Positions 4,161-46,035 of a DNA stretch of 64,000 nt are shown here, one piece after another (within the stretch, counting starts at the first letter, position 1; the number at the start of each line of letters is the position of its first letter). The stretch is from assembly GCF_013266735.1 (NCBI RefSeq), contig NZ_JABSNU010000002.1, forward strand, positions 124,001 through 188,000, given 5' to 3'. The notes below the pieces were generated by a model. The model made no database searches, had not been told where the DNA came from, and worked only from the letters and a program-made list of their open reading frames with translations. The translations under genes were made by a program, and so were the position numbers. The DNA comes from Pedobacter foliorum (GTDB lineage Bacteria > Bacteroidota > Bacteroidia > Sphingobacteriales > Sphingobacteriaceae).

Positions 4161-5202
4161 GTTTTAATATTTTTAAGCTAACAGAAAAGGTAAGTCCATC
4201 GTCTCTGATGTCAACTTCGTCGCCGGATAACAGGTTATATCTTTCCGCAAGATTGGCTAAACCACTTCCTGTAGAATATTCCTGGTTTGATTTAAGCTGA
4301 ATGTTATTGATTACGCTTATCCACTTGCCATCTTGTCTTATGGTTATATTAAGTGGGGCAGCATCCGTAAGTTCATTGTGTTTAATCACGTTTTCCAAAA
4401 GTGGCTGAAGAGAAAAGACCGGAAGCACAAGACCTAAACTTTCTTCTTCCTGAATATCTAAATTAAAGCGCAATGCATCACCAAACCTTACTTTTTGCAT
4501 TTCAAGGTAATCTGCACATAGTTTAAGCTCATCATGTAGTGGTGCTATTCCAGTTTTATTAGTTGATATAGACACGCGTAGAAAGTCGGACAAGCGGATT
4601 AAATAATCTTCAGCTTTTTCAGGACTCCTTTTAATTAGTGATTTTAAAATGTTGAGTGCATTAAAAAGAAAATGTGGGTGTATTTGCTGAAGCAATAATT
4701 CATTTGCAGCCTGAGATCTTGCAGCAATTAAACGTGAGTTTTCCAGCTGTACCTGAGTGTTGAAATCCTGTACGATAATAAAGTTTTGAAGGAGAAGGGC
4801 AATAGCATTAATCACGAATCCTTGTATGCTAAGGTACAAGTAGATGATATTCCCTTTTACTTTAAATGGCGTTCGTTTAAATATTAGGTCGTGACTGCTA
4901 AGGTATTGACCAAGCCAATAGATGAATAAAATGACAACGGTACTCATTGCAAAGCTTAGCACATAAAACCAAGCTGGACATTTACTTAAGGTTGGTGTTT
5001 TTTCGTCTCTAAAAATCACTAATAAGCCAATATTGGACAAACATATCATTATCATAAGAAGGATAAAGAACACCGATTTTTGCAGAGCAATATATAGTTG
5101 TCCATCTTCTATAAAAGAGGAAAGCATTAAAAAGAAACTGACCGCTATAGAAAAACAGCAGCTTATTCTGACTAAACTTTTAACAGGAAGTTTCGTTTTC
5201 AT
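4135..5202 (-). CDS. LytS-type sensor histidine kinase
   Basis: The kinase has about four N-terminal hydrophobic segments (one near LVRISCCFSIAVSFFLML, others following to about residue 145), then a His_kinase domain with the phospho-acceptor motif QIHPHFLFNALN and an ATP-binding region with PLLENVIKHN and GSGLANLAERY. The ligand-sensing part is the short membrane region; no periplasmic domain is evident. I place the start at the ATG at 5202. The frame can be extended three codons to a TTG at 5211, but the ATG is the more usual start. It forms a pair with the downstream LytTR regulator and follows the barrel gene by 35 bp. Confidence 0.93.
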   Translation of the reverse strand: MKTKLPVKSLVRISCCFSIAVSFFLMLSSFIEDGQLYIALQKSVFFILLMIMICLSNIGLLVIFRDEKTPTLSKCPAWFYVLSFAMSTVVILFIYWLGQYLSSHDLIFKRTPFKVKGNIIYLYLSIQGFVINAIALLLQNFIIVQDFNTQVQLENSRLIAARSQAANELLLQQIHPHFLFNALNILKSLIKRSPEKAEDYLIRLSDFLRVSISTNKTGIAPLHDELKLCADYLEMQKVRFGDALRFNLDIQEEESLGLVLPVFSLQPLLENVIKHNELTDAAPLNITIRQDGKWISVINNIQLKSNQEYSTGSGLANLAERYNLLSGDEVDIRDDGLTFSVSLKILKHEDCNYRR

Positions 5203-31446: not shown

Positions 31447-31455
31447 GAAAGCTAT

Positions 31456-32262
31456 TTATATTGCCATGAGGATTGGAAAGAATATATACCAATTTTCTTG
31501 AAGCGACCTTATGGCAAGTTCGACTGTGGAGCTAGTACTTGTTTTTCTTAGCATATTTTTTCTGTGCTGCTCTACTGTTGATCTGCTGATGAATAGCGAA
31601 TCTGCAATTTGACCGCTGTTTTTTCCTTTTACAAGATGACTGAGGATTTCTTTTTCACGTTTGGAAAGTATGGTTTTACTGATTTTACCAACAGATTTCC
31701 CTTTTGATACATCATAGTAGCTTGGCTCGCCTTCTAAGCCAATAAAAGATAAGGTCGAGCCATTCTCTTTTTTTAAATGACTAATAACTGTATGAACATC
31801 TAGAACTCTGATTACAGCTCCTTTTTCGTTAGTTTGTATAGTTATGGCTTGCTGTAAAATACGGATATTCTTACCGTCTTTGCGCCTTATTCTATAGTCG
31901 TAGCTTACTTTGTACTTTAAAACCTTGTCAGCAGGAAGTTGGTTAAAAAAGGCGGTAACCTGGTTTTCGAAATCAAGAAAATAGGGTAGATCATCAGGAT
32001 GTATATTCTCTAAAATAAAACTAAGCGTAAACTCTTCCTCGGAAGACAATCCTAAAATTTTTGTGACCGAATTGCTTGTCCATTCTACTTGGGCAGTAGG
32101 GCAATTGAATATGAAGTAATAGAAATCCCCTACATGAAAAATGTTTAGCATTTTTTTATACAACTCTATTTCCTGAGAAGGGGATTCATTTTTGTTGTAT
32201 TTGGCTATTTTATACCAGATTTCTTTGGTATTGTCATTTTTAGCGGGTTCAATATCTACCAT
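31456..32262 (-). CDS. PAS-LuxR transcriptional regulator (paralogue A)
   Basis: The 268-residue protein has a PAS-like sensory region (about 45-180; GDFYYFIFNC, VTKILGLSSEEEF, IHPDDLPYF, YDYRIRRKDGK) and a C-terminal LuxR/GerE helix-turn-helix (about 200-260; LSKREKEILSHLVKG, IADSLFISRSTVEQHRKNM). It lacks a receiver domain. It is convergent with the PhnZ-like gene, 9 bp away, and next to a paralogue on the same strand. It could control the PUL-like operon in response to a small ligand; that is inferred from position only. Confidence 0.88.
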   Translation of the reverse strand: MVDIEPAKNDNTKEIWYKIAKYNKNESPSQEIELYKKMLNIFHVGDFYYFIFNCPTAQVEWTSNSVTKILGLSSEEEFTLSFILENIHPDDLPYFLDFENQVTAFFNQLPADKVLKYKVSYDYRIRRKDGKNIRILQQAITIQTNEKGAVIRVLDVHTVISHLKKENGSTLSFIGLEGEPSYYDVSKGKSVGKISKTILSKREKEILSHLVKGKNSGQIADSLFISRSTVEQHRKNMLRKTSTSSTVELAIRSLQENWYIFFPILMAI

Positions 32263-32403
32263 TTTTCAAGTTTGATATAAAGTATTAGCTTGTGCTAAAG
32301 GATAGTTTGAATTATAGCTAAAGCAAAGCGTTACATTGTACAAATGTAACAACCCCAGACTATGTAAAAAATACACCTTTAGGCGTATTTAAATGTAATT
32401 AAC

Positions 32404-33180
32404 CTAAATTAAACCCTGTAAAATACAAGATTTAATGAGCTGAGCCGTGTTTTTACACTCAGATTTAGCTAAAATATTATTTCGGTGTTTCTTAACTGTA
32501 AGGGCACTTATAAAGAGTTTTTCAGCTATAGTATTGTTATTTAGTCCCTCGGCAATATATTTTATGATATCTATTTCTCGTTTGGAGTATTTTGGTGCGT
32601 TTTGATTGTTGTTTCCCGCATTTAAATTCATGTAGGAGGGTTCATTATCTAATCCGATAAGGGAAAATTGATAGGTATTGGAGTTGCTCAGATGGTCAAT
32701 TCGTGTGTGGATGTTTAAGGATTTTCCATAACCTCCGTCGCTATCCAGCGTTAACATTAAAGCCTGATGATTCATTAATGCATATTCGCCATTTTTCATC
32801 CGTGCGCGAAAGCTATAATTCATTTTGTACTTTAACATTTTTTCTCTTCCCACATTTTTGTAGAAAAAATCGGAAATTAATGATTCGGTTTTTGCTACAA
32901 AATCTACGTCTTCCGGGTGAATAGCGTTAAGTACATCATTAAAAATTACGGTTTTGGGATCAAAGCCATGCATCTCATAGATAGAAGGACTAACATTTGA
33001 TAATGACATGTCATAGAAATCTATTACGTAATAATAAAAATGGCCAGTACTTATTATAGAATTTGTTAAATCATCAAAGCTTATTTGAGGAAAAGAAGTA
33101 TTCTCTTTGGCTTTGTTTTCCGCAGAAAACCAAACCTCATGAAGTTTCTGTATTTCAGTGTTCATTAAATTGGGAGGCAT
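32404..33180 (-). CDS. PAS-LuxR transcriptional regulator (paralogue B)
   Basis: The 258-residue paralogue of the gene at 31456 has the same arrangement: PAS-like region (about 40-175; GHFYYYVIDFYDM, IHPEDVDF, MNYSFRARMKNGEY) and LuxR-type HTH (about 195-255; YSKREIDIIKYIAEG, IAEKLFISALTVKKHRNNI). Shared phrases such as SFIGLEGEPSYYD versus SLIGLDNEPSYMN show tandem duplication. It is separated from paralogue A by 141 bp, so each may have its own promoter. A second in-frame ATG at 33165 is possible as start. Confidence 0.88.
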   Translation of the reverse strand: MPPNLMNTEIQKLHEVWFSAENKAKENTSFPQISFDDLTNSIISTGHFYYYVIDFYDMSLSNVSPSIYEMHGFDPKTVIFNDVLNAIHPEDVDFVAKTESLISDFFYKNVGREKMLKYKMNYSFRARMKNGEYALMNHQALMLTLDSDGGYGKSLNIHTRIDHLSNSNTYQFSLIGLDNEPSYMNLNAGNNNQNAPKYSKREIDIIKYIAEGLNNNTIAEKLFISALTVKKHRNNILAKSECKNTAQLIKSCILQGLI

Positions 33181-33349
33181 TTAGATAATACTAAAATACT
33201 GATTTGTTACTTATGATGCCAATTTGTTTAGAATCTTTTGTCTCCTGTCACAATTTACCCCTCTAATTGTCAGTTATGCCCTCTGTTAATTGCATTTAAG
33301 TGTAGTAACTTAGTATAGTTAAATTGCTTAATCCTAAAGCTTAAAACCT

Positions 33350-34192
33350 ATGAAAAATTTAATTTATCCCTGCTTAACGCTCAAAGGTAAAATTGCAGAG
33401 GCATCTGATTTTTACATCCAAACATTTGGTGATGGAAAAGTTAGTCAAACCTCACCCTTTGTAATTCAAATTGAATTAAGTGGACAAAAGTTTATGCTAC
33501 TTAATGATGGGCCATCTTCAACACCTAATCCGGCTATTTCGTTTATGGTTATGTGCGAAAGTGGAGAAGAAACCGAAAACTACTGGCGTAAATTGATAGA
33601 TGGCGGAAGTATTTTAATGCCTCTTGATAGTTACGATTGGAGCCCCAAATACGGTTGGGTACAAGATAAATTTGGCGTTTCCTGGCAATTGTATACTGGC
33701 GATAAACCAAATGCCTCACAGAAGTTTTGTCCTACATTAATGTTTACCGGTGCCAAGGTAGGAGAGGCTGCAAATGCATTGCATTTTTACACCAAATTGT
33801 TCCCTAATTCGAATGTTGAGGGCATTATGAAATACAGTGAGACCGATGGTGATAATGTTGATTTTGTGAAACATGCTCAATTTACGATTAATGGCCTTGT
33901 AGCAATGGTCATGGATAGTTCTGCGGGCCATAAATTCGGCTTTAACGATGCCATTTCGTTGGTTGTAGAGTGCGAAACACAAACCGAGATTGACAAATAT
34001 TGGGAACAGTTAACAGCAAACGGTGGACATGAGGTTGCTTGCGGTTGGTTAACTGATCAGTATGGTATTAGCTGGCAAATTATACCAAAAGCACTAGGTA
34101 AATTGGTTAGCGATCCTGAACGCGGCCAAAGGGTAATGGGGGCGTTAATGAAAATGAAAAAATTGGTTATAGCAGATCTGGAAAACGCTTAG
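33350..34192 (+). CDS. VOC family protein with two PhnB-like glyoxalase domains
   Basis: The 280-residue protein consists of two tandem vicinal-oxygen-chelate domains of the PhnB-like (3-demethylubiquinone methyltransferase-like) type: domain 1 (1-125; PCLTLKGKIAEASDFY, PKYGWVQDKFGVSWQL) and domain 2 (126-265; PTLMFTGAKVGEAANALHFY, GWLTDQYGISWQI). The paired D(K/Q)(F/Y)G(I/V)SWQ motif is characteristic. It is cytoplasmic and a single gene. The PhnB name is historical and does not imply phosphonate metabolism. The reaction is unknown. Confidence 0.88.
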   Translation: MKNLIYPCLTLKGKIAEASDFYIQTFGDGKVSQTSPFVIQIELSGQKFMLLNDGPSSTPNPAISFMVMCESGEETENYWRKLIDGGSILMPLDSYDWSPKYGWVQDKFGVSWQLYTGDKPNASQKFCPTLMFTGAKVGEAANALHFYTKLFPNSNVEGIMKYSETDGDNVDFVKHAQFTINGLVAMVMDSSAGHKFGFNDAISLVVECETQTEIDKYWEQLTANGGHEVACGWLTDQYGISWQIIPKALGKLVSDPERGQRVMGALMKMKKLVIADLENA

Positions 34193-34207
34193 TATTTATA
34201 GGCTTGC

Positions 34208-35005
34208 CTAAATTCCAAAAACTCTGGTTAATTCCTCTGAGCTTATTTTGCCATAGTTTTCAAATAGGTGATTCACTATCTCTGCCTTTTGTTTCTTTTT
34301 ATCATTTGAATCCGATGCCATTTTAATCAATTCTATTTGTTGTACCAGCATTTCTTTACTAACTAGTATGGGGTAGAATTTGGCTATTATAGACGATTTA
34401 GCCTCTCCATTGGCATTTGATTGATAGCATAAAATTACCTGATCTTTAATCGGTCCTGATTCTGTTGAAAAAAGCTTGTTAGAGAAAATGAGCCCATTTT
34501 GGCTATGCTCTATTTTTCGAGTTATTGTAGTGTTGTCTGCCGTATATTGTACAAAAAAAAAGTTCGAATTATCTAGTTTATAAGACGGTTTAATAGCTAA
34601 TGGTTCATTTTCAATTAGCAAGATACGATCTTCAGTTTCGGAAGATGAAAAATAGGTTTCTGGGGTATTGCCTTCCGACATAATAGATCGGGTACTTAAA
34701 TGATGAGTACCTGAAGCAGGGACAAGATTTGCTTTAAGGACCGCTAAGAGTTCGCCCTTGCTATCAATTTTTGCTGTTTGGGCTGTAATGTCAAAGCGCC
34801 CCTTTCCTGGGCTTATACACGATATTTTTGATGTCTTATCACCAAATATAAGTTTGTCGTCTGGGTTAAGTGCATCTCCAACCTTTACCGGGCTTTTTGT
34901 TCGGCTTAATATCACTTTACCCTTTATAAAAGTAACATAGTATTTTTCGGCAGGAGAAAACACTGTTGTAAATGTTAAGAGGAAGACTAGAAGTAAATTT
35001 TTCAT
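34208..35005 (-). CDS. FecR-like exported protein
   Basis: The 265-residue protein has a signal peptide (MKNLLLVFLLTFTTVFSPAEK) and an N-terminal FecR-like beta domain (about 22-75; IKGKVILSRTKSPVKVGDAL, KLIFGDKTSKISCISPGKG). The central part (about 120-210) resembles an Ig-like beta-sandwich, and the end is helical (KKQKAEIVNHLFENYGKISSEEL). FecR-like domains of this stand-alone type are found beside CHASE2 and caspase-like genes in other bacteria. It is the last gene of the six-gene protease operon, 2 bp after the CHASE2 gene. It probably acts in the periplasm as a ligand- or partner-binding module. Confidence 0.72.
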   Translation of the reverse strand: MKNLLLVFLLTFTTVFSPAEKYYVTFIKGKVILSRTKSPVKVGDALNPDDKLIFGDKTSKISCISPGKGRFDITAQTAKIDSKGELLAVLKANLVPASGTHHLSTRSIMSEGNTPETYFSSSETEDRILLIENEPLAIKPSYKLDNSNFFFVQYTADNTTITRKIEHSQNGLIFSNKLFSTESGPIKDQVILCYQSNANGEAKSSIIAKFYPILVSKEMLVQQIELIKMASDSNDKKKQKAEIVNHLFENYGKISSEELTRVFGI

Positions 35006-35007
35006 AA

Positions 35008-36189
35008 TTATTTTTCGTTAAAATAAGATTCACGTAATTCTATGACCCAGGTTTTGAATTGATTCTTACTCCATTCAGCCTGTCTTAGTCGTATTATATA
35101 TCGGATTAAATTTATGTAAAGTGTTAGAATTAATACCTGGATATGGATGTTGAAGAAAAAATAGGAACAGACTGACAATACCGATAGGTATGTAGCACTT
35201 ACTAATAAAGGGCCTAACCACTTTATGTTTTTAACCTTTACATCATCGTCTTTTGGAAAAAGCATCAGTCTGGAGAAGGCTGTATATGCAACTATCAGGA
35301 AAATAATCCAATACCAGGTTATTAAATGATATCCGGACTTTAAAGTGAGGTAAACATTTAACAAAATCAACGTTCCAGGAGTCGGACCGAAAACGGTTTC
35401 ATGGATGTCACTATTAAAATCTCCCATCACAATGATTCTATTAGCCAAAAAATCGCTTGCAATTATTTCATCTGGGAGAATAAGCAAATCTGATAGACTT
35501 ACAACTGGATATTCCCCTTGTTCAAATAACTCATGAGACCTGATCTGATAGTCAATTATTATTGAGTTTAAACTTGGCTTATTATTATCCCAGTGCCAAT
35601 CCTCAGTGTAAGAAAAAGCCCTTTTCTCCAGTTTCTCGTACATGTAGACAGGGATAGTTGGTTTGTTGTCATCCTGAAATAACTTGAACTTTAGAAAACC
35701 CTCACTGGCCCTACTGTAATCTGCTATTGCATTTGGGACTTCGATGTCCAGTTTTTCAACTTTACTGTCATCATCGAAATGAGTTGGGAAAACAATGTCG
35801 TTTATTCCTTTAACACTGTTTTTTAGCAAGCTGTCATTTTCTGATACACCTTTTAGAAAAACATCGCAGATGGTGAATCTTACTAATTTTTGGTGCTTTT
35901 TTAATATTGTGAAAAACTGAGCTAGTTTAGCGCGGTCAGTAATAACTTCATTTCCTAACGCATCTTTAAGCGGGATTAGTGCCTTGTCATATGCCAGATT
36001 TATAAATAAGAAATCCTTTTTAGGAGGGTCTTCATCAATTTGTAAAACAACCCGTTTTAGTATTGACGACCATTGGATAAGCATTCGTTCATCGCCATAA
36101 CTGTAATCTGTATTTACCCAGAAAACAGTAAGAACAAAGAGAACAAAAGCATGAAGAAAACTTATTAGCCATTTAATCCATGTTTTCAT
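35008..36189 (-). CDS. CHASE2-like membrane sensor protein
   Basis: The 393-residue protein has an N-terminal transmembrane helix (about 8-25; WLISFLHAFVLFVLTVFW), a long extracytoplasmic region (about 30-275) with CHASE2 features (FINLAYDKALIPLKD, SLLKNSVKGINDIVFP, LANRIIVMGDFNSDIHET, TPGTLILLNVYLTLK) and three C-terminal helices (about 283-370). The typical downstream kinase or cyclase is missing; only a short cytoplasmic tail follows. It overlaps the upstream caspase gene by 4 bp and lies 2 bp before the FecR-like gene. It probably senses an extracytoplasmic signal on behalf of the protease operon. Confidence 0.78.
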   Translation of the reverse strand: MKTWIKWLISFLHAFVLFVLTVFWVNTDYSYGDERMLIQWSSILKRVVLQIDEDPPKKDFLFINLAYDKALIPLKDALGNEVITDRAKLAQFFTILKKHQKLVRFTICDVFLKGVSENDSLLKNSVKGINDIVFPTHFDDDSKVEKLDIEVPNAIADYSRASEGFLKFKLFQDDNKPTIPVYMYEKLEKRAFSYTEDWHWDNNKPSLNSIIIDYQIRSHELFEQGEYPVVSLSDLLILPDEIIASDFLANRIIVMGDFNSDIHETVFGPTPGTLILLNVYLTLKSGYHLITWYWIIFLIVAYTAFSRLMLFPKDDDVKVKNIKWLGPLLVSATYLSVLSVCSYFFFNIHIQVLILTLYINLIRYIIRLRQAEWSKNQFKTWVIELRESYFNEK

Positions 36190-38375
36190 TTCTTGGTAAA
36201 TATAAAATCTCCGCCTACGTGCCCAGCCAGTTCAAGCGTGCCATATCTTGGTTCCGTTTTCGATTCCGTCATCACTGCTTCAATAATCTGGTTGATGAAC
36301 ATTTTTTGCGCGGTCAGGTATTTCTCTTTGTTATCACTCAATGCCTTTACCAAGTACTTCATAAATACGCTTACATCAGGTACCTCGGTGTCGTTTCCAG
36401 AGGTGATGGCAACTCTTGTAATTTTGTTTTCCATTTCTTTGATAGCCGGAGGTGCATCTTTTAGACCCCGGGTTTTGAATACCGAACCAGAAAAACAGGC
36501 GTCTGTAATAAGTAAAGTGTGTCTGGAGGGGAGCTTTGCAATAAGGTCCAGCACATCCTTATTAGGCAACCAGGTATTTATATCTTTATATTTAGCATCT
36601 GTTAACAACCAATACCCCTTTTTTTCTTTTTCTACCCAAATGCCATGGCCGGCATAAAAAATCAGCAGATTATCCTCAGGCTGCAAAGTGCTGGTCAACT
36701 CCATCAATTGCCTTTTAATTTCTTTATTCCCCGGATTAAACAGGGTTAAAATGTTACTTTCAACAAAATTATAATTGCTTTTAAGGATCAGTTTTAATTT
36801 GATGGCATCAGCAATAGGATTTTCCAGGGAAGGAATACTGCTATCGTCGTAGTTTTGTGCAGCAATCAACAAACAGTAATTCTTACCTTCCTGTGTAATA
36901 ACCGGACTGATTTCATTGCCGGCAACCTGGGTAATCTTTTCAATTTCAAAAACCAGTTCCCCGTTATTACCCGATGCATCTTCTGCTACCAAGGTAAATT
37001 TATTGATTCCATCGACCAGCCTTACATCCCCCCAAAAATCACCACCATTCTGTGCATATATTTTGTTGCCATTGATGGTTACACTTTTAAGACCTGATGG
37101 GTCTTTTGCGACTCCTTTGATCATGACAGTTGCTTCCGCAGCGGTAATTTTAAGGCCTCTTTTAATATCAGGTTCGGTAATGACAATTTCAGGTGGACTT
37201 TTATCAGATTTTGCTTCTTGTACCAGGTGACTTTCCAACTGGGCCAATCCGTTTATTGCAGGCTGGTAATCATCTTTATACAGTAACGCAAGCTCATAAT
37301 CTGTTTGGGCTTTGGTGTAATCCTTTAAGCCAGCATGAGCTTCGGCTCTCCCAGTCAGGTATCTGTACTTTGCCCATGAACCAGATGTTTCATTTATTAT
37401 CAGGTCATTATACTTAAACTCAAAGGCAGCTTTAAATTTAGCTATGGCAGGTTCATAAGCCTTTGCAGCTAATTCGATAAGACCTGAAGTATAAGCAACA
37501 TCGGGAATTTTCTCGGAAAAAGAAGCTTCTTTAAAAGCTATTCTGGCCTGGGCAACATTGCCCATTTTTGCGTAGGCTTGAGCCTTAGTCAACTTTGCCT
37601 TGTCTCTCCAGTACCTGGATATTCCTTTGTCTTCTTTTCCTACCCTGTCGCATAAAGCAATGGCCTCTTCGTATTTCTCTTCGGCCAACGCAAGCCTGGC
37701 ACTGAGATATACAGGTGATAATTGCCGATCCCCATGTCCCCGCTTTCCTTCATAAAATTTATTGAGCGTATCTATGCAGTGCCGTGCAGCTGTAAAATCA
37801 CCAGACTGTATAGCCATTTCTCCGAAAGCGGTATATTTATCACTGGTTAACAGCCCACTATTGGTTACCTGGCCAAGCATATCGGTAACTAAACCACCCA
37901 ATTTTTCCAGGGCACGGTAATCATTCAACGTCTGTTTTAGGTCTCCGTCAAATACATTTGCCGATGCCCGATCATTATAAGCCCGAATCAAGAACTTATC
38001 TACAGACTGGTATGTGTAACGGCGTACTATATTCCCTTCATTTTCTACGAGGATGCGGGGGTACCCCCTTATCACTTTCAAAATTAAATCCCATTCTGCA
38101 TTTGCGCCCTTGATATCTCCAATCTTCATTTTATGTTTAGGAAAATCACTCAGTGAATTTAGCAATGGGTAAGTGGTTATCGATTCCCGGTATTGCTTAT
38201 CTGCAGTAACATAATCTCCTTCTTTCCAGCTTTTTTTAGCTTGCTCATAAAGTTTATATGCTTTTTTATGAGCTTCAACATCTTTATCTCTTTCCTCTCC
38301 AGATTGTGCAAATACCTGCATAGCTATGCAAATCATCAAACCTCCCAGTAATAATGTACCTTTTATCTTTTTCAT
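36186..38375 (-). CDS. Exported caspase-family (C14) protein with TPR repeats, copy A
   Basis: The 729-residue protein has signal MKKIKGTLLLGGLMICIAMQVFAQ, TPR-like helical repeats (about 25-390), an Ig-like domain (about 400-480; ITEPDIKRGLKITAAEATVM, DPSGLKSVTINGNKI) and a C-terminal caspase domain (about 495-729). The catalytic dyad is His577 (FYAGHG) and Cys627 (ITDACFSGS). It is nearly collinear with the 714-codon gene upstream and overlaps it by 4 bp. The domain is predicted to be periplasmic. Peptidase C14 members outside animals (metacaspases, orthocaspases) usually cut after Arg/Lys; specificity here is unknown. Confidence 0.92.
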   Translation of the reverse strand: MKKIKGTLLLGGLMICIAMQVFAQSGEERDKDVEAHKKAYKLYEQAKKSWKEGDYVTADKQYRESITTYPLLNSLSDFPKHKMKIGDIKGANAEWDLILKVIRGYPRILVENEGNIVRRYTYQSVDKFLIRAYNDRASANVFDGDLKQTLNDYRALEKLGGLVTDMLGQVTNSGLLTSDKYTAFGEMAIQSGDFTAARHCIDTLNKFYEGKRGHGDRQLSPVYLSARLALAEEKYEEAIALCDRVGKEDKGISRYWRDKAKLTKAQAYAKMGNVAQARIAFKEASFSEKIPDVAYTSGLIELAAKAYEPAIAKFKAAFEFKYNDLIINETSGSWAKYRYLTGRAEAHAGLKDYTKAQTDYELALLYKDDYQPAINGLAQLESHLVQEAKSDKSPPEIVITEPDIKRGLKITAAEATVMIKGVAKDPSGLKSVTINGNKIYAQNGGDFWGDVRLVDGINKFTLVAEDASGNNGELVFEIEKITQVAGNEISPVITQEGKNYCLLIAAQNYDDSSIPSLENPIADAIKLKLILKSNYNFVESNILTLFNPGNKEIKRQLMELTSTLQPEDNLLIFYAGHGIWVEKEKKGYWLLTDAKYKDINTWLPNKDVLDLIAKLPSRHTLLITDACFSGSVFKTRGLKDAPPAIKEMENKITRVAITSGNDTEVPDVSVFMKYLVKALSDNKEKYLTAQKMFINQIIEAVMTESKTEPRYGTLELAGHVGGDFIFTKK

Positions 38376-40435
38376 TTCTTATTAAATATAAAATCACCCT
38401 CAACATGCCCCGCCAATTCCAATGTACCATATCTGGGTTCTGTTTTCGATTCTGTCATCACCGCTTCAATAATTTGGGTAGTAAACATTTTTTGTGCAGA
38501 CAGATATTTATCCTTGTTTTCGCTCAAAGCTTTTACCAGGTACTTCATAAATACGCTTACATCAGGCACCTCAGTATCATTACCAGAAGTGATGGCTACA
38601 CGCGTAATTTTGCTGTTCATTTCTTTCAACGCCACAGGAGCATCAGCTCCAATACTACGGGATTTAAAAACAGAGCCTGAAAAACAGGCATCAGTAATCA
38701 AAAGTGTATGTCTCGAAGGTAATTCCGCAATCAGATCCAATACCTGTTTGTTTGGTAGCCATGTATTTACATCATTTCGCTGTGCATCTGTAAGCAGCCA
38801 ATAACCTCTTTTCTCTTTATCTACCCAAATACCGTGACCAGCATAAAAGATCACAAGGTTGTCTTCAGGTTGCAAAGCTTCTTTTAATTCCAGGAACTTC
38901 TTTTTAAAATCATCGCGTTGCGGATTAAACAGACTATAGATATTATCCTCCCCAAAATTGTAACTGTTCTTAAGGATGAGTTTTAGCTTTATTGCATCAG
39001 CGATAGGGTTTTCCAGGGAGGGGATTGTTGAATCGTCATAGTTCTGACTGGCAATAAATACGGCATAGTTTTTACCCTGTTTTTCTGTTACCGCTATAGG
39101 TGTTACTGCAATTGGTGTGGCGGCTTTTTCTATTTCGAAAACTTGTTTGCTTATATTTTCCGCCAGGTCGGTTGCTATAATCTCAAACTTGTTTACACCA
39201 TCCGCTAATGCGACTGTTCCCCAAAAATCACCTTCCTCTTTTGAATATATCGTCTGTCCGTTAATAGTGGCAGATTTTAGACCCGAAGGGTCTGAAGCAA
39301 TTCCCTTGATCATGATATCTTTTCCGACGGCTACAACTTTCAACCCTCGCATATTGGTGGGTTCTAATATCTTTATTTCTGGACCGGTTTTGTCGGCTTT
39401 ACGGGCCACAATCTGATTTCCTTCCAGTTTGGCAAGACCATCTAATGCAGGTTGATAATTGGGATTATAAATCAATGCAGCATCGTAGTCCTTTTTAGCA
39501 TTACCGTAATCTTTTAAACCCAGGTAAGCTTCAGCGCGGTAAGTGTAGTACCGAAATTTCCCTCTTCTTTCAATTTTATTCAAGGCAATTTTGCCTGGCT
39601 TCATCGCCTCGGTAAACATTGGAATCGCCTGGGCATATTCTTTCTGACTCAAAGCTAATAATCCCTGATAGTATGTCAGGGATTCCCAAACTAATATCCT
39701 GTCAATTTCCTCAATACTTTTCTTTAAATTTTCTGTATCACCTTTTCCAAAGTAGGCAAAAGGGAGCATTGATTTAGACATTTTTTTGGCAAGCCTGTAA
39801 TCTTCTCCTTCAACACTAATTCTGTTAAGCCTGGAAATAACCTCATCATATTTTTTTTCTAATAACAAGCTGTAAATTCCTGACACAAAAATGCCACGCT
39901 TATAATCTGCTTTTTCAGCGAGTGATTTTATAGTTTTGAGATTTTCTAAATCGCTTGTTTGATAACATGCGTCAATTGCCAACCAACAAGATGTTTGCTG
40001 CAAATACGTAAATGACTTTGCAGTTCGTGATTGCAAATGTTCAATAGCCACTCTTATTCCCACAGCAGGGTCACCCATATCAAGATTACTTACAGTTTGA
40101 GTATAAAAATTGACCTCGAGGCTACCTTCCCGACTGTCCTTGCTACTTAAATTCTGTTTTTTAAAACTTGCAATCAAAGCATCCCAGCATCTATTTGCAC
40201 CTTTAACATCACCAGACTTTAATTTTTCAAATGCAATGGTCGACAACTTTGCAACCGGAGCCTTTTCATTAGCTTCAAATAATAATTTGTCCGCTTCCAG
40301 TATTTTTCCTTCTTTTCGTAATTTATCGCTTTTGGTAATTAATTCTCTTGACTCCCTGGCTTCATTTCCTGACTGAGCTAATAAATCGCCTGTACAAAAC
40401 ATTAAAAGCAATATTGTTAATAGTTTTATTTTCAT
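38372..40435 (-). CDS. Exported caspase-family (C14) protein with TPR repeats, copy B
   Basis: I start at the ATG at 40435 (687 residues), which gives a clean signal peptide (MKIKLLTILLLMFCTGDLLAQ) 4 bp after the previous stop; a longer frame to 40516 would overlap the upstream gene. Layout: TPR-like repeats (about 20-350), Ig-like domain (about 365-440; EPTNMRGLKVVAVGKDIM) and a caspase domain with dyad His534 (FYAGHG) and Cys584 (ITDACFSGS). Its Ig and caspase parts are strongly similar to copy A, down to EPRYGTLELAGHVEGDFIF at the end. The TPR parts have diverged much more. This points to duplication with changed partner-binding regions. Confidence 0.92.
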   Translation of the reverse strand: MKIKLLTILLLMFCTGDLLAQSGNEARESRELITKSDKLRKEGKILEADKLLFEANEKAPVAKLSTIAFEKLKSGDVKGANRCWDALIASFKKQNLSSKDSREGSLEVNFYTQTVSNLDMGDPAVGIRVAIEHLQSRTAKSFTYLQQTSCWLAIDACYQTSDLENLKTIKSLAEKADYKRGIFVSGIYSLLLEKKYDEVISRLNRISVEGEDYRLAKKMSKSMLPFAYFGKGDTENLKKSIEEIDRILVWESLTYYQGLLALSQKEYAQAIPMFTEAMKPGKIALNKIERRGKFRYYTYRAEAYLGLKDYGNAKKDYDAALIYNPNYQPALDGLAKLEGNQIVARKADKTGPEIKILEPTNMRGLKVVAVGKDIMIKGIASDPSGLKSATINGQTIYSKEEGDFWGTVALADGVNKFEIIATDLAENISKQVFEIEKAATPIAVTPIAVTEKQGKNYAVFIASQNYDDSTIPSLENPIADAIKLKLILKNSYNFGEDNIYSLFNPQRDDFKKKFLELKEALQPEDNLVIFYAGHGIWVDKEKRGYWLLTDAQRNDVNTWLPNKQVLDLIAELPSRHTLLITDACFSGSVFKSRSIGADAPVALKEMNSKITRVAITSGNDTEVPDVSVFMKYLVKALSENKDKYLSAQKMFTTQIIEAVMTESKTEPRYGTLELAGHVEGDFIFNKK

Positions 40436-40439
40436 TTTC

Positions 40440-42161
40440 TTACTTCTTAATAAATATAAAATCTCCTCCCTCATCACCGGCTTCTTTAATCTCTCCATAT
40501 TGCGGTACTTGTCCATTTGCGCTATTGTTGATTACAGCCTCCCTAAAGCTTGAATACAACCTTTCTGCTGATAAATATTTGGCCGTATTTTGCATAAGGC
40601 GTTTTACCAGATATTCAATGAATACGCTTTTATCAGGCACTTCCTTTAATGTTCCGCTAGTCATTGCTTTTCGACTCTGCATGTCATAAAGCTCTTTTAT
40701 GGCTTTTGGCGCACCAGTTAAAATAGCTCGGCTTTTAAAAATACTCCCAGCAAAACAAGCATCGGTAATGAGCAATGTATGTTTGGATGGAATGGCAGTG
40801 AGATACTCTTTTAAATCGGCATTGGTAACCCACGAAGAGCGGATTGATCTCCCTGCATCAGAAGGAAACCAATATCCTTGTTTTCGTGCAGGATCCCATA
40901 AGCCATGGCCTGCATAAAAGATCAGAACATTATCTTCAGGTGTTATTTTATGTGAAAGGGTTTCTAATGAACTAAATAGTTCTGCACGTGTTGGATTTGT
41001 TAATAAAGTAACATTTTCCTCATCAAAAGTATAACCCGTAGTTAGTATGTTGTGTAATGATTTTGCATCCGCAATGGGTTGATCCAAATCGGGAATACTT
41101 TCGTCATTATAGTCTTGAATGCCAATAATAAGCGCATAATATTTGCCTGTTGAGCTTATGGTTTTTACATTTACGGGTACAATTGGCACTGGTTGCGGGT
41201 CTTTACTGGCAGGATTTCTATTAATAATAAAGTCAAATTCTCCAGTATTCATCATCCCGTCGGTGGCCTTTACTTTAAGCTTATTGTCGCCTGTAGCTAG
41301 CGTGATGTCTGCAGAGAAGTTTCCTGCTCCGTCTATCCTGGCATTAATGCCGTTTACCTGTACTCCTTTAATACCGCTATTATCAGTAGCTGTTCCGGTT
41401 ACTGCAATTTTACTTCCGCTTTGAACTACTTTTAAACCACGAGTAACAACAGGGTTGGTGATGGTAATTTGAGGTGGGGTTTTGTCTGAACCTGCAAATG
41501 CTGCAGCAATAGATGGGGGAGGGGATAGCAGATAATTTATCTTCAAATAGTCAACGCCAAGTGTAACGCCTTCGCCAATGTCAAACCCAATATTACTGCC
41601 ATACATTTCGATACCTGTTTTTTTAAATACAACTACATCATTAATGAAACAGACTACAGATGAACCTACACGTACAATCTTTATTTTATTGTATTGCCCT
41701 GGTTCTGATTTCACCGCTTTGGCCGCAGTTGTATCTTCAACTTTTGTATAGATATCAGACTTGTCGAAAGAAGTAAAGGCGACCACTCCATTGGACGAGA
41801 ATACAAAACTATTATTTACAGAAGGTTTGCTTGGAAGACCTCCAAAGATAATTCCAAATGTTGATCCCTGGTCTCCACCTTTTATACGTGATATGGAAGC
41901 CTCTATGCTAAAATCCCGACTAATATCCATGTCAAAGTTTAGGACCTTTTCAAAGAATTTGTTTGCATTTTCTTCATTCAATAGCAAAAAACCAGAATCT
42001 GTTCTAACGGTAAAATTATCTGTAGGTTCTTTATCCCAGCCATCTGGGGTAGTAAAATCGGAATGAAATATTAATTCTTCATTTGCGTTGGTTTGCGCAA
42101 ATAAAGAATTTAAAGAAGTAGCTGCCATCAGTAAGAACAGCATTAACCTAAATTTTTTCAT
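40440..42161 (-). CDS. Exported caspase-family (C14) protein with a LamG/DUF1080-like head
   Basis: The 573-residue protein has signal MKKFRLMLFLLMAATSLNSLFAQ. In place of TPRs it has a beta-sandwich head of about 30-210 (HSDFTTPDGWDKEPTDNF, YNKIKIVRVGSSVVCFINDV, IGFDIGEGVTLGVDYLKINY) like LamG/DUF1080 domains. An Ig-like domain (about 228-312; ITNPVVTRGLKVVQSG) and a caspase domain with His419 (FYAGHG) and Cys469 (ITDACFAGS) follow. It is the first of the three caspase genes, 10 bp after the papain-like gene. The sandwich head suggests recognition of a glycan or peptide ligand. Confidence 0.92.
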   Translation of the reverse strand: MKKFRLMLFLLMAATSLNSLFAQTNANEELIFHSDFTTPDGWDKEPTDNFTVRTDSGFLLLNEENANKFFEKVLNFDMDISRDFSIEASISRIKGGDQGSTFGIIFGGLPSKPSVNNSFVFSSNGVVAFTSFDKSDIYTKVEDTTAAKAVKSEPGQYNKIKIVRVGSSVVCFINDVVVFKKTGIEMYGSNIGFDIGEGVTLGVDYLKINYLLSPPPSIAAAFAGSDKTPPQITITNPVVTRGLKVVQSGSKIAVTGTATDNSGIKGVQVNGINARIDGAGNFSADITLATGDNKLKVKATDGMMNTGEFDFIINRNPASKDPQPVPIVPVNVKTISSTGKYYALIIGIQDYNDESIPDLDQPIADAKSLHNILTTGYTFDEENVTLLTNPTRAELFSSLETLSHKITPEDNVLIFYAGHGLWDPARKQGYWFPSDAGRSIRSSWVTNADLKEYLTAIPSKHTLLITDACFAGSIFKSRAILTGAPKAIKELYDMQSRKAMTSGTLKEVPDKSVFIEYLVKRLMQNTAKYLSAERLYSSFREAVINNSANGQVPQYGEIKEAGDEGGDFIFIKK

Positions 42162-42171
42162 GTTTAATTAA

Positions 42172-43596
42172 TTATTGGTGTCCCATTTCTACCATCATTG
42201 GTACAATACTTTTCCCTTTGCTAAATCCATCAAAGGCAATTTTATCATTGGAGAATTTGATGTTCCCAGCTTCAACTATTTTTTCCTCAAGAACTTTAAA
42301 GATTCTTTCATTGAAACTGCCTTCACTAGTCTTGATTTTTGAAATGAGGTCATCAATATTTAATTCATCTTTGCTGTATAATACACATAGCAGATCTTTT
42401 CCCGGCTTGTCATCAAACTCTATGAAATGATCTTCATCAGGAATGGCGACATCATTTTTTTTGTCGGTAAGTGCGGCACTTATGCCATCTTCATAAGGGA
42501 AAATTTTGGTGATTTCATTACTCAGGTCGGTACTGATTGCGTAAACATACGCAGGCTCATTGTTAGAAATGTAAATACGAAATCTGGTTCCTGAATTATA
42601 CGTGGATTTGGTTTGATAAATAGATAAAGGGCCGGTGGTTGACTTTGCAGGAGTTACTTTTAAACCTCGAGTTGAAGTTAGCAGTGTAACAGGCATATCT
42701 GCATTGTTAGCAAGAGTTAATCTGATACTGCCTGAAAGATCTGCAATTGTAGGTGAAGCCTCCGGTAGATCTATAAATTCATATGCATATCGGGTGAATT
42801 TTGCAAAATCTTCATACCTGACCCAGGTATAACCCTTATTTCCCCACCTGGTTCCCCAACTGTTCTGAACTTCAAATGCTCCGCCAAATTGGTCATCACT
42901 ATAACCAACCACGCACATAGCATGACCGCCGTAACTTTCTAAAGGTTGTTCTGTAGGAGTCCATACTTCTTTTGCACTCATAAATGAATTCGGACAAATC
43001 ATACCAAATACTACTGGTTTTTTCTCAGAAATAGACTTTTTTACAGATTGAATTTTTAGTTGAGAGGAAGCTCCAGCATCAAAAAGACGCATATAATCCT
43101 TGATTTTGGAGGATTTAGCAAGTGCCAGCTGACTTTCTGTAATGGACGGGGTACATACAACGGGCAAGTCCTTGTAATAAATTGCCCCTTGCTGTTTCAT
43201 TATTTCCATAGCGTAGGAGATTACCGATCCCCCAACACATGAATTGTCATTAGGTTTAAGCATCCGGAATAAAAATGCCGGAGCATAAGCATTATCAGTT
43301 ATCGTTTTTTGATCTAACCAATTATTTTTAATTGCCTCAACAATGGTTTTGCCACAATAGGCAACTGCCCATGAAGTACAGGTGCCATATGAACCCTGGT
43401 TACCGGGAGTAGGGGTATATGCTTTTATACTTGCTGATGGAGGTAAAACTGTTAAACTTCGGGTGAGTTTTGCTTTTTGTGGAACCGAAGCATAAACTTC
43501 GTCGTTAAAATCCATGCCTGTAACATATTGGGCATGAGTAGAATTAGTAAGGATTGCTAATGACAATAAGCAAATGAGAGGTATTTTTTTTGTCAT
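42172..43596 (-). CDS. Exported papain-like (C1) cysteine protease with DUF4384-like domain
   Basis: The 474-residue protein has signal peptide to HAQ (residue 23) and a C1 peptidase domain (about 55-275). The active-site set is complete: Gln67 (PGNQGSYGTC), Cys73, His225 (YGGHAMCVVGY) and Asn245 (VQNSWGTRWGNKGY). The segment about 300-415 (FRIYISNNEPAYVYAISTDL, KIFPYED) resembles DUF4384, a domain found with caspase-like and kinase proteins in other bacteria. The tail is helical. It is the first gene of the six-gene operon and could process or activate the caspase-like proteins. That order of action is inference. Confidence 0.9.
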   Translation of the reverse strand: MTKKIPLICLLSLAILTNSTHAQYVTGMDFNDEVYASVPQKAKLTRSLTVLPPSASIKAYTPTPGNQGSYGTCTSWAVAYCGKTIVEAIKNNWLDQKTITDNAYAPAFLFRMLKPNDNSCVGGSVISYAMEIMKQQGAIYYKDLPVVCTPSITESQLALAKSSKIKDYMRLFDAGASSQLKIQSVKKSISEKKPVVFGMICPNSFMSAKEVWTPTEQPLESYGGHAMCVVGYSDDQFGGAFEVQNSWGTRWGNKGYTWVRYEDFAKFTRYAYEFIDLPEASPTIADLSGSIRLTLANNADMPVTLLTSTRGLKVTPAKSTTGPLSIYQTKSTYNSGTRFRIYISNNEPAYVYAISTDLSNEITKIFPYEDGISAALTDKKNDVAIPDEDHFIEFDDKPGKDLLCVLYSKDELNIDDLISKIKTSEGSFNERIFKVLEEKIVEAGNIKFSNDKIAFDGFSKGKSIVPMMVEMGHQ

Positions 43597-43624
43597 AAAC
43601 TAAAATACCCAAAATCAAATGCAT

Positions 43625-43652
43625 AAAAAATACCCATTTATGGGTATTTTTT
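43625..43652. terminator. Bidirectional Rho-independent terminator
   Basis: A perfect hairpin AAAAAATACCC-ATTTAT-GGGTATTTTTT: the stem ends in A/T runs on both sides, so it can work on either strand. It lies just after the 106-residue gene (minus strand) and upstream of the papain-like gene, separating the two transcription units. Confidence 0.85.
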
Positions 43653-43681
43653 ATTTAAATCTATTTGTCAATTTGGATCTA

Positions 43682-44064: not shown

Positions 44065-45189
44065 TTATAATAAAAACTCATGAAAATTATCTGGAGTAAT
44101 TATTTTAGTCTCCGTATCCGGATAGGCATCTAAGAATGTTTTAGGGAATTTAGTTTTACTTTTTACATTCCATTTTACTTCATAAGCATTCATTAAGCCG
44201 TTGCGCTCTTCAATATAATCAATTTCCTGTTGGGCATGCGTACGCCAGAAATATTGATTACAATTAATTTGCTCATAAGCAAGGAATTTAACACGTTCGC
44301 TAACTATGAAATTTTCCCAAAGTGCTCCGATGTCCTGACGTAATACTGCTGGGCTAAATTGGTTAATGACGGCATTTCGAAGCCCATTATCATAAAAATA
44401 AAATTTGCGACTCTTTTTTAATTCATTACGTAAATTTCGACTTAATGAACTAAGTCTGAATATGATAAAGGATTTTTCTAATAAGTCTATATATTTTTCT
44501 GTAGTTTGGTTATCTAACCCTGTCAACTGCCCTAATTCATTATACGACACTTCACTACCAATTTGAAAAGCAAGCGCTTGTACTAGCTTTTCCATCTTAT
44601 CTGGTTTTTGGATTCTTTCCCATGTAAGAATATCTTTATATAGATAGCTACTGGAGAGCTGCTTTAAACGCGATTCTTCTTCCCCAGGATTATTAACAAT
44701 TTCTGGATAATAACCATAGATTAATCTATGGTTTAGTAAACGTTTCTCTTCGAGAAGCCCATGATGGTTAACCATTTCAGAGAATGAAAACGGATATAAA
44801 TTGTATTCCCATTTACGACCAGTTAATGGTTCATTAATACTATTTGCAAGTTCAAATGCCGATGAACCAGTAGCGATTACTTTTACCTCTTTAATTTGAT
44901 CAATAATTAGTTTTATACATAGTCCTATGTTTTCTATCCGTTGAGCTTCATCAATAACCAATGTTCGCGCCTTTCCAATTAGAGATCTTAAAAGACTTGA
45001 TGTTGGGTTAGATAACAATGCACGAATATCTGCGTCATCACCATTCCACCATAATACATCAGTTTTAAAGTTGGATGATAGTTGTTGCAATAAAGTACTT
45101 TTGCCAACCTGGCGAGGCCCAAGTAATATGATGGCCTTTTCATCGTTTAAGCGGTGCTTGATTGATTCTGTTATTGCTCTTGAAATCAT
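44065..45189 (-). CDS. AAA_14/DUF4143 ATPase
   Basis: The 374-residue protein has an N-terminal P-loop ATPase (Walker A GPRQVGKST near 23-31, Walker B TLVIDEAQ, sensor IATGSSAFEL, then LTGRKWEYNLYPFSF) and a C-terminal DUF4143 nuclease-like region (YLFLAY-type segment EIDYIEERNGLMNAYEVKW, with Glu and Lys as in PD-(D/E)XK folds). It is cytoplasmic. Bacteroidota genomes often carry many copies; cellular role is unclear. It is the only gene in a direct-repeat-bounded cassette. Two palindromes lie immediately upstream, the nearer only 5 bp from the ATG, suggesting tight repression or autoregulation. Confidence 0.93.
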   Translation of the reverse strand: MISRAITESIKHRLNDEKAIILLGPRQVGKSTLLQQLSSNFKTDVLWWNGDDADIRALLSNPTSSLLRSLIGKARTLVIDEAQRIENIGLCIKLIIDQIKEVKVIATGSSAFELANSINEPLTGRKWEYNLYPFSFSEMVNHHGLLEEKRLLNHRLIYGYYPEIVNNPGEEESRLKQLSSSYLYKDILTWERIQKPDKMEKLVQALAFQIGSEVSYNELGQLTGLDNQTTEKYIDLLEKSFIIFRLSSLSRNLRNELKKSRKFYFYDNGLRNAVINQFSPAVLRQDIGALWENFIVSERVKFLAYEQINCNQYFWRTHAQQEIDYIEERNGLMNAYEVKWNVKSKTKFPKTFLDAYPDTETKIITPDNFHEFLL

Positions 45190-45264: not shown

Positions 45265-45284
45265 AATTATACTATAGCTGAAAA
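45265..45284 (+). repeat. 20-bp direct repeat, right copy, overlapping a gene 3' end
   Basis: Identical to 44033-44052. On the minus strand it contains the last four codons and TAG stop of the 45272-45907 gene plus the next bases. A duplicated gene 3' end bordering an inserted segment is what site-specific integration or a recombinational insertion would leave. Confidence 0.9.
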
Positions 45285-45907
45285 TGTCTATCGAATAGTT
45301 GCTCAATTTTTAGAATGGAGATTCGTCCTTTTCTGCCTGGACAAACCTCTTTTTCAAAAAACTGAGGGGCATAATAGTCTAGTTTTTTTATCTCATTTTT
45401 TGTGATCAGATACAGGTAAATTTCTCCTCCGTCGTAAATATAACTTCCAGTTCTATTGCCATCTTTATCAATACATGCATGGCCATCAACATAGTCATCG
45501 GCTAATTGCCAGGGTTTTTCCTTTCCAAGGTTTTTCCAAAAATTGAGGAGTTTTTTACGGCTAAAATAAACGGGTTGGAAATAAATATTGACATCAATTG
45601 GGACTAAATTTACAGCGACATAATTCCTATGTCTAATTTTCAACGCTACTGAAAACGGAAGTTTAATCCTCTTATCCAATCGGGGAAGGGCTTTATATGT
45701 ATAGGCCGTTATGGTGTCCGATTTTTTGCTTAAAATATAATAAGGTGAAAGCGGAAGCCAATTGGATGAATGCTGAAAAATAATTGTGCTATCGGCATTG
45801 GCCTGAAGAAACAATTGTAGCTCGTTTGGCTTCTCTTTTTTTTGTGCAAATACTGCAAAACTGATAGTGCCTAAAAGGAACTTTAATAACAGCGATCTGA
45901 GATTCAT
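45272..45907 (-). CDS. Exported protein of unknown function
   Basis: The protein of about 211 residues begins at the ATG at 45907 with signal peptide MNLRSLLLKFLLGTISFAVFAQ; the frame is open 30 codons further but the added part has no sense as a signal. The mature part is beta-rich with many aromatic and basic residues (YFQPVYFSRKKLLNFWKNLG, YIYDGGEIYLYLITKNE). It was not recognised. The stop codon lies inside the right 20-bp direct repeat. It is divergent from the DUF4833 gene (46063), with which it shares a 155-bp promoter region. Confidence 0.6.
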   Translation of the reverse strand: MNLRSLLLKFLLGTISFAVFAQKKEKPNELQLFLQANADSTIIFQHSSNWLPLSPYYILSKKSDTITAYTYKALPRLDKRIKLPFSVALKIRHRNYVAVNLVPIDVNIYFQPVYFSRKKLLNFWKNLGKEKPWQLADDYVDGHACIDKDGNRTGSYIYDGGEIYLYLITKNEIKKLDYYAPQFFEKEVCPGRKGRISILKIEQLFDRHFQL

Positions 45908-46035
45908 TAATGTGTAAGTCGAAGTTAAAGAAACGTATTTTTTTGCTATAAACAGAGAACTTTTGGAGCAATTAATTGTAAAAGATAATGTCGGCAATTT
46001 GACAATTGAATTTCAAGAGTTTAGAATTCTCTGTA

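Follow-up and report, generated by a model that had tools for sequence, protein, structure and literature searches.

The six-gene operon examined here, from Pedobacter foliorum (assembly GCF_013266735.1), encodes a papain-like protease, three caspase-like proteases, a CHASE2-like membrane protein and a small protein that is probably exported. It lies in a 64,000-nucleotide stretch of contig NZ_JABSNU010000002.1 (positions 124,001 to 188,000), referred to below as the window. With a confidence somewhat short of even, we read this operon as an envelope-located sense-and-cleave protease module carrying a diversifying protease array. What is new here, as judged from alignments and trees, is the occurrence of neighboring caspases with near-identical immunoglobulin (Ig)-like plus caspase halves and diverged N-terminal halves, together with supported conflicts between the trees of the two halves. 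Discussion of bacterial caspases has mostly treated them as cytosolic enzymes of death or defense. If the reading is true, one to nine caspases outside the cytoplasm, together with a papain and a membrane protein, would amount to a network of proteases at the bacterial surface. Given the constant/variable pattern, what the front halves recognize can be tested directly in relatives that grow in culture, such as Solitalea agri.

All six genes described in an earlier note on this DNA were recovered on the minus strand, and its proposal of a single operon holds. The genes are co-directional, are transcribed in the order papain, cas1, cas2, cas3, CHASE2-like protein and small exported protein, and are separated down the operon by +10, +4, -4, -4 and +2 nucleotides. 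The start of cas2 was placed at 40435, giving a signal-peptide-like N terminus; the listed open reading frame extends to 40516. The features, in window coordinates, are as follows.

42172..43596, minus strand: first operon gene, encoding an apparently exported papain C1A protease that ends in a DUF4384 domain (both PF00112 and PF14326 above cut-off)
40440..42161, minus strand: cas1 (class I), caspase predicted by hydropathy to be exported, with a non-TPR N-terminal domain, an Ig-like domain and a C14 domain
40497..41138, minus strand: caspase domain of cas1, residues 342-555 (PF00656, E 7e-18)
38372..40435, minus strand: cas2 (class II), with a signal-peptide-like start, a TPR-bearing N-terminal half, an Ig-like domain and a C14 domain
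38483..39070, minus strand: caspase domain of cas2 (PF00656, E 3.4e-11)
36186..38375, minus strand: cas3 (class II), with a signal-peptide-like start, a TPR-like N-terminal half, an Ig-like domain and a C14 domain
36324..36881, minus strand: caspase domain of cas3 (PF00656, E 1.5e-13)
35008..36189, minus strand: CHASE2-like membrane protein without an output domain (PF05226 below cut-off, hydropathy, homologs in the same gene position)
34208..35005, minus strand: small exported protein, labeled FecR-like in the earlier note (homolog adjoins CHASE2 in seven of seven near-clade modules)
43623..43654, minus strand: hairpin with a T-rich sequence after it, immediately upstream of the operon and inside the block, terminator-like or a leader element
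34192..43681, no strand: whole block missing from the relative G699, where the flanking genes are ~70 bp apart

The papain-like protein matched PF00112 (E 5e-11) and PF14326 (DUF4384, E 5e-10), each over the Pfam cut-off, and Gln67, Cys73, His225 and Asn245 were invariant across six aligned sequences including that of the window. On the basis of PF00112 and these Gln/Cys/His/Asn catalytic residues, it was assigned to family C1A. PF00656 was over the cut-off in all three window caspases (E 7e-18 for cas1, 3e-11 for cas2 and 1.5e-13 for cas3), and the His and Cys of the dyad were present in all 20 aligned caspases, which supports assignment to family C14 and bears out the earlier claim that the protease residues are intact. 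A PF00656 search of the window's own genome missed these three caspases, which hmmscan finds, and absence by that search type was not trusted. Additionally, an Asp two residues before the catalytic Cys was found in 20 of 20 aligned caspases and a second S1-type Asp in 19. Such S1-type Asp residues are linked to Arg/Lys specificity in metacaspases, and their conservation suggests cleavage after Arg/Lys.

Each caspase domain is preceded by an Ig-like Glucodextran_B match, over the cut-off in cas1 and cas3 and at 25.2 against 27 in cas2. Pfam placed TPRs over the cut-off in cas2 and gave weaker matches, under the cut-off, in cas3; the N-terminal domain of cas1 showed a weak 3keto-disac_hyd match alone (E 0.0085), and comparison of this half with PDB sequences gave no convincing match. 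The cas1 model has a mean predicted local distance difference test score (pLDDT) of 51.8 with an unreadable N-terminal half, and its caspase half alone matched MALT1 and metacaspases at low confidence. Self-directed programmed death or lysis, in which activated caspases would destroy the cell's own envelope proteins, is often proposed as a role for bacterial caspases (PMC7475262, PMC3501461), and the retained dyads are in keeping with it. However, none of the six genes encodes an effector (lytic, pore-forming or nuclease) or an inhibitor that Pfam recognizes, and PADLOC returned no known anti-phage system, only the generic caspase model PDLC02987 on the three caspases, with no match at E 1 for the other three proteins. 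We regard this alternative as quite unlikely.

When 399 family genomes were searched with a CHASE2 profile, 11 gave matches, seven of which form a near clade (E < 1e-184); at most four candidates per genome were scored in this survey and in the papain survey of the phylum described below, which makes the numbers of distant members minimum values. In all seven near-clade genomes, one or more caspases and the small exported protein adjoin CHASE2, and the papain stands at the other end in six, giving a fixed order of papain, n caspases, CHASE2 and small protein; G806 has the caspase, CHASE2 and small protein without the papain. The earlier note missed that the number of caspases varies, being three in the window, nine in G021, four in G029, two each in G652 and G666, and one each in G046 and G806. 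A scan of named genomes gave only two loci, both among these, those of Solitalea agri (G046; Solitalea belongs to Sphingobacteriaceae) and "Flavihumibacter soli" R14 (G021). The four weaker CHASE2 matches in the family were of three kinds: G728 keeps the near-clade order of caspase, CHASE2 and small protein; in G155 CHASE2 adjoins a WD40-caspase gene and the gene of a small protein; and in G708 and G654 CHASE2 adjoins genes with LuxR-type similarity, with no caspase match. Within the window's genus, a papain match at E <= 1e-100 was found in 5 of 145 genomes and the whole module in three.

The relative G699 is collinear with the window, its flanking pieces sharing 91-96% nucleotide identity, and its phnB-like gene and 106-residue gene lie ~70 bp apart at the place where the window has 9.5 kb, exactly this operon. 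The sequence of that ~70-bp junction differs from the hairpin region of the window. As judged from this comparison, the block is a discrete unit of gain or loss, and the direction could be either. Because the set recurs, and because a close relative lacks it cleanly, the association is more than chance; the accidental neighborhood that the earlier note had named as a refutation does not fit the survey.

The 20 aligned caspases were compared in two parts, an N-terminal half (N-half) and a C-terminal Ig-plus-caspase half (C-half). Class II C-halves are 67-80% identical in most pairs and up to 99% identical, with g229 lower at 55-59%, while the N-halves are 14-46% identical outside the closely related G029/G046/F4 group. 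A class I clade of W1, X1, F1 and V1 stands separate (support 91/81), as does a third class of F8 and g141 (support 99/100). Within class I, the N-halves of W1 and X1 are alike (70%), that of V1 is distant (25%), and F1 has TPRs instead. Two neighboring caspases in G666 are 42% identical in the N-half and 96% in the C-half, and the neighbors S3 and S4 of G029 are 72% identical in the N-half, with a synonymous divergence (dS) of 1.15, and 99% in the C-half, with a dS of 0.20. A breakpoint between S3 and S4 was placed at codon 306 (chi-square 59, with 0 of 2000 permutations as strong); the pattern is mosaic, because the first ~120 codons are also less diverged (dS 0.45-0.58). Further breakpoints were found at other places in S2-A1 (1 of 500 permutations) and S2-S3 (14 of 500), and no breakpoint signal was found in W2-X2 (296 of 500) or W1-X1 (324 of 500).

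Trees of the two halves conflict. Y1 and Y2 are sisters in the C-half tree (100/98) and fall in separate supported clades in the N-half tree (98/98 and 97/97); S1 groups with F9 in the N-half tree (96/95) and with F2/F3 in the C-half tree (98/98); S3 and S4 also conflict, with weaker N-half support (91/99). Recombination within the arrays, by gene conversion or unequal crossing-over, is the best explanation of these patterns, since protein-level selection would hardly account for low synonymous divergence. The orthologs W2 and X2 have similar dS in the two halves (0.93 and 1.03), with a nonsynonymous divergence (dN) of 0.22 in the N-half and 0.065 in the C-half.

The products of the operon are likely extracytoplasmic. 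An N-terminal 19-mer over the hydropathy threshold was found in cas1, cas2, cas3 and the CHASE2-like protein; the papain and the small protein are under this threshold and look signal-peptide-like by eye. A hydrophobic 12-mer near the start was present in 25 of 25 module-type caspases examined. The part of the earlier note that placed the caspases outside the cytoplasm therefore stands as likely, but its contrast with known bacterial caspases was overstated, as exported homologs are known: PMC3501461 sorted 98 of 671 sequences as membrane proteins, most with an N-terminal helix that is possibly a signal peptide, and 30 as extracellular. Secretion of the enzymes for nutrition, predation or competition, with release outside the cell, would agree with the signal-peptide-like starts and with papain-caspase pairs that occur without a detected CHASE2 in G651, G182, G141 and G229. 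However, none of the six window proteins has a lipobox or, at E 1 in Pfam, a type IX C-terminal sorting domain, and a membrane protein is encoded in the same operon in the seven near modules, so we consider secretion very unlikely.

The CHASE2-like protein has 393 residues, and its homologs in the same gene position are 60-69% identical. Its hydropathy profile fits the family, with a hydrophobic segment at the N terminus and three toward the C terminus, of which the final two almost adjoin. The claim that it lacks an output domain is upheld by a tail of ~30 residues after the last hydrophobic segment and the lack of a kinase match, for a protein whose PF05226 match is itself below the cut-off. 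The distant CHASE2 proteins adjoining papains in L078, L079, L080 and L083 score 84-99 bits to PF05226.

The small exported protein has 265 residues, with no sensible Pfam match and no NCBIfam match, and the FecR-like label given to it earlier was not supported by any of the searches. It had no PF04773 match at E 1 in Pfam; PF04773 occurs at 40 places in the genome, 39 over the cut-off, none at this gene; hhalign gave a probability of 3.5% against 12 FecR proteins of the window's genome; and its model, at pLDDT 71, had no PDB fold match at E 0.001. In the three distant modules L078, L079 and L080, a protein of 161-170 residues stands between the papain and the caspase, with a signal-peptide-like start and a hydrophobic stretch near the end by eye; one of these was scanned and showed no Pfam family.

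A papain profile search across 395 genomes of the phylum (match threshold E 1e-20) found matches in at least 22. When neighboring matches were counted once, there were 10 strong loci (E <= 1e-85), all of which were opened, and 15 weaker ones, of which 12 were opened (all except G455, G439 and G489). A window-based caspase profile found a caspase in the opened stretch of 9 of the 10 strong loci and 2 of the 12 weaker ones (Fisher p 0.002), a comparison in which the strong/weaker split was set post hoc and the opened stretches were of unequal length. Of the 10 strong loci, 7 showed a CHASE2, counting the window's own below the cut-off; the Pfam scan covered all 10 except G278, G262 and G596b.

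One such cluster, in G480 (L085:3749-13054), holds an FGE-sulfatase-type protein, two caspases, a papain and a CHASE2 fused to a SpoIIE phosphatase. The contig L170, from a viral collection and with bacterial-looking genes, carries over L170:1-9136 a papain cut by the contig end, a caspase-FGE gene, a small gene, a second caspase with a partial FGE, a DUF4384-like gene whose product is under the Pfam cut-off, and a CHASE2-cyclase fusion. A second, inverted papain start lies at 4362-4802 of this contig. As read from these loci, the CHASE2-papain-caspase association is one that reaches beyond the near clade; some versions would signal into the cytoplasm, whereas that of the window has no output domain.

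By sequence, papain, caspases, output-less CHASE2-like protein and small partner form a recurrent operon gained or lost as a block, in which the caspases join a conserved Ig-plus-caspase half to a fast-changing N-half and array recombination exchanges or homogenizes the halves. We propose that the products act outside the cytoplasm, with the CHASE2-like protein and its small partner serving as a membrane sensor or anchor. A signal would activate the papain, which would process the caspases, or the reverse, and the variable N-halves would determine binding, directing a single proteolytic activity, probably with cleavage after Arg/Lys, to several partners. With its 1 to 9 copies, its recombination and its patchy occurrence, the array fits recognition of changing targets, as in envelope conflict, better than fixed housekeeping. 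An immune- or self/non-self-like envelope repertoire, made of a homogenized executioner half, diversified recognition halves, a papain activator and a CHASE2-like sensor, is a possible but doubtful extension of this proposal.

Several observations weigh against the proposed module. The export prediction is based on hydropathy. The window's CHASE2-like protein matched PF05226 at E 1.2e-4 and 22.2 bits, below the curated cut-off of 26.3, and the window-based CHASE2 profile missed, at E 1e-3, distant CHASE2 proteins that Pfam finds. Small proteins from the near modules match those from the distant ones weakly (hhalign probability 8.9%, E 0.0037, ~55 columns), which does not establish their homology. 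The near clade is rare, at seven of 399 family genomes. A sensor is not always present, because papain and caspase stand together without a detected CHASE2 in G651 and G182 of the window's genus and in G141 and G229 of the family. The 87 flanking proteins of seven modules hit eight PADLOC families, each through a single member and seven of them models of one candidate, with no defense island, and a phage origin was rejected after a comparison of cas3 with 50,697 phage records gave no match. The ratio dN/dS in the N-halves is 0.14-0.41 where measurable, and the faster change may therefore be relaxed constraint; no half has a dN/dS above 1 where measurable, several pairs being saturated. Finally, G229 has a gene of 126 residues just upstream of its papain (L043:7440-7820), a signal-peptide-like start joined to the last ~75 caspase residues, which by its sequence is a cut-down array member.

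These last points also favor neutral tandem duplication, in which array size and half-gene homogenization would be ordinary repeat recombination without functional diversification: dN/dS below 1 and a cut-down copy agree with it, and recombination between similar tandem copies is expected. Nevertheless, all 20 full-length copies retain the catalytic His and Cys, related protease halves carry N-halves both with and without TPRs, and at similar dS the amino acid change of orthologous N-halves is about three times faster, so neutrality seems unlikely. Purifying selection on the N-halves is likewise compatible with an envelope stress or protein-quality response, in which the CHASE2-like protein senses a signal, the proteases clear or process surface proteins and the array widens the substrate range. 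The SpoIIE (G480) and cyclase (L170) outputs in related clusters suggest signaling, most of the 25 flanking Pfam families listed, out of 147, are metabolic, and a FecR/CHASE2-kinase operon of Burkholderia, BiofilmReg, is linked to biofilm regulation (PMC5192318). However, patchy presence in the family, clean absence of the block from a close relative and a copy number of 1 to 9 are unusual for a core stress response, and we think this explanation rather doubtful.

The sense-and-cleave module resembles several known systems in part. As the earlier note had supposed, no description of the full set was found in the literature searched, with most subscription journals outside the reach of that search, and among the matches listed in a search on tandem paralogs and gene conversion none dealt, by title, with bacterial caspase arrays. 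In PMC3501461, a survey of 2012, C14 proteases occur in operons, Bacteroidetes and three further groups have operons with several caspases, and no predicted operon has more than three metacaspases. These bacterial metacaspase/orthocaspase operons, which share membrane or extracellular forms with the present set, differ from it in that here there are up to nine caspases (G021), a papain, a CHASE2-like protein and diversified N-halves. The caspase conflict systems EACC1 and EACC2 (PMC8195603) likewise combine a constant caspase part with a highly variable part, a proposed peptidase activation and an occasional CHASE2, whereas here the starts are signal-peptide-like, several paralogs share an operon and the variable part is N-terminal. 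Membership in EACC1 was rejected on NF047832 scores of 63.8 (cas3), 62.0 (cas2) and 78.7 bits (cas1) against a cut-off of 140.

In the BiofilmReg operon of FecR and a CHASE2-histidine kinase (PMC5192318), a small exported protein gene also adjoins a CHASE2 membrane protein gene; here there are proteases, no histidine kinase or response regulator, and a small protein without FecR support. Membership, defined by CHASE2 fused to a histidine kinase, was rejected on the short tail and missing kinase match of the 393-residue protein. A cyanobacterial metacaspase-CHASE2 fusion (PMC2853523) also links CHASE2 to a caspase, but as a single fused protein, whereas here the genes are separate and the caspases are predicted outside the cytoplasm. 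The paracaspase MALT1, a fold match resting on the caspase part of the low-confidence model, would share the caspase fold and the Ig-like domains beside it; the present proteins differ in being bacterial and having a signal-peptide-like start. MALT1 has a death domain, and none was seen here.

Signs of mobility were looked for without success. The block holds the six operon genes only, with no integrase or transposase inside it, and its GC content of 0.36-0.41 is like the rest of the window. No tRNA was found in the 64-kb window, and the two junction regions share no word of 9 bases or longer, direct or inverted. Plasmid matches to the papain came from 28 records, all below 60% identity; of three opened, two were annotated, neither with a gene annotated as a caspase, and the third carried no annotation. 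G699 lacks two PAS-LuxR regulator genes (31447-33246) at the corresponding position, which makes a second small indel adjoining the operon. An AAA_14/DUF4143 ATPase gene (44065-45189) is also missing from G699 and is placed differently in G653, which points to a separate insertion or rearrangement. Proteins related to a 241-residue protein of the window (45272-45997) occur in 38 of the 145 genomes of the genus, some of them in tandem and several with internal stop codons.

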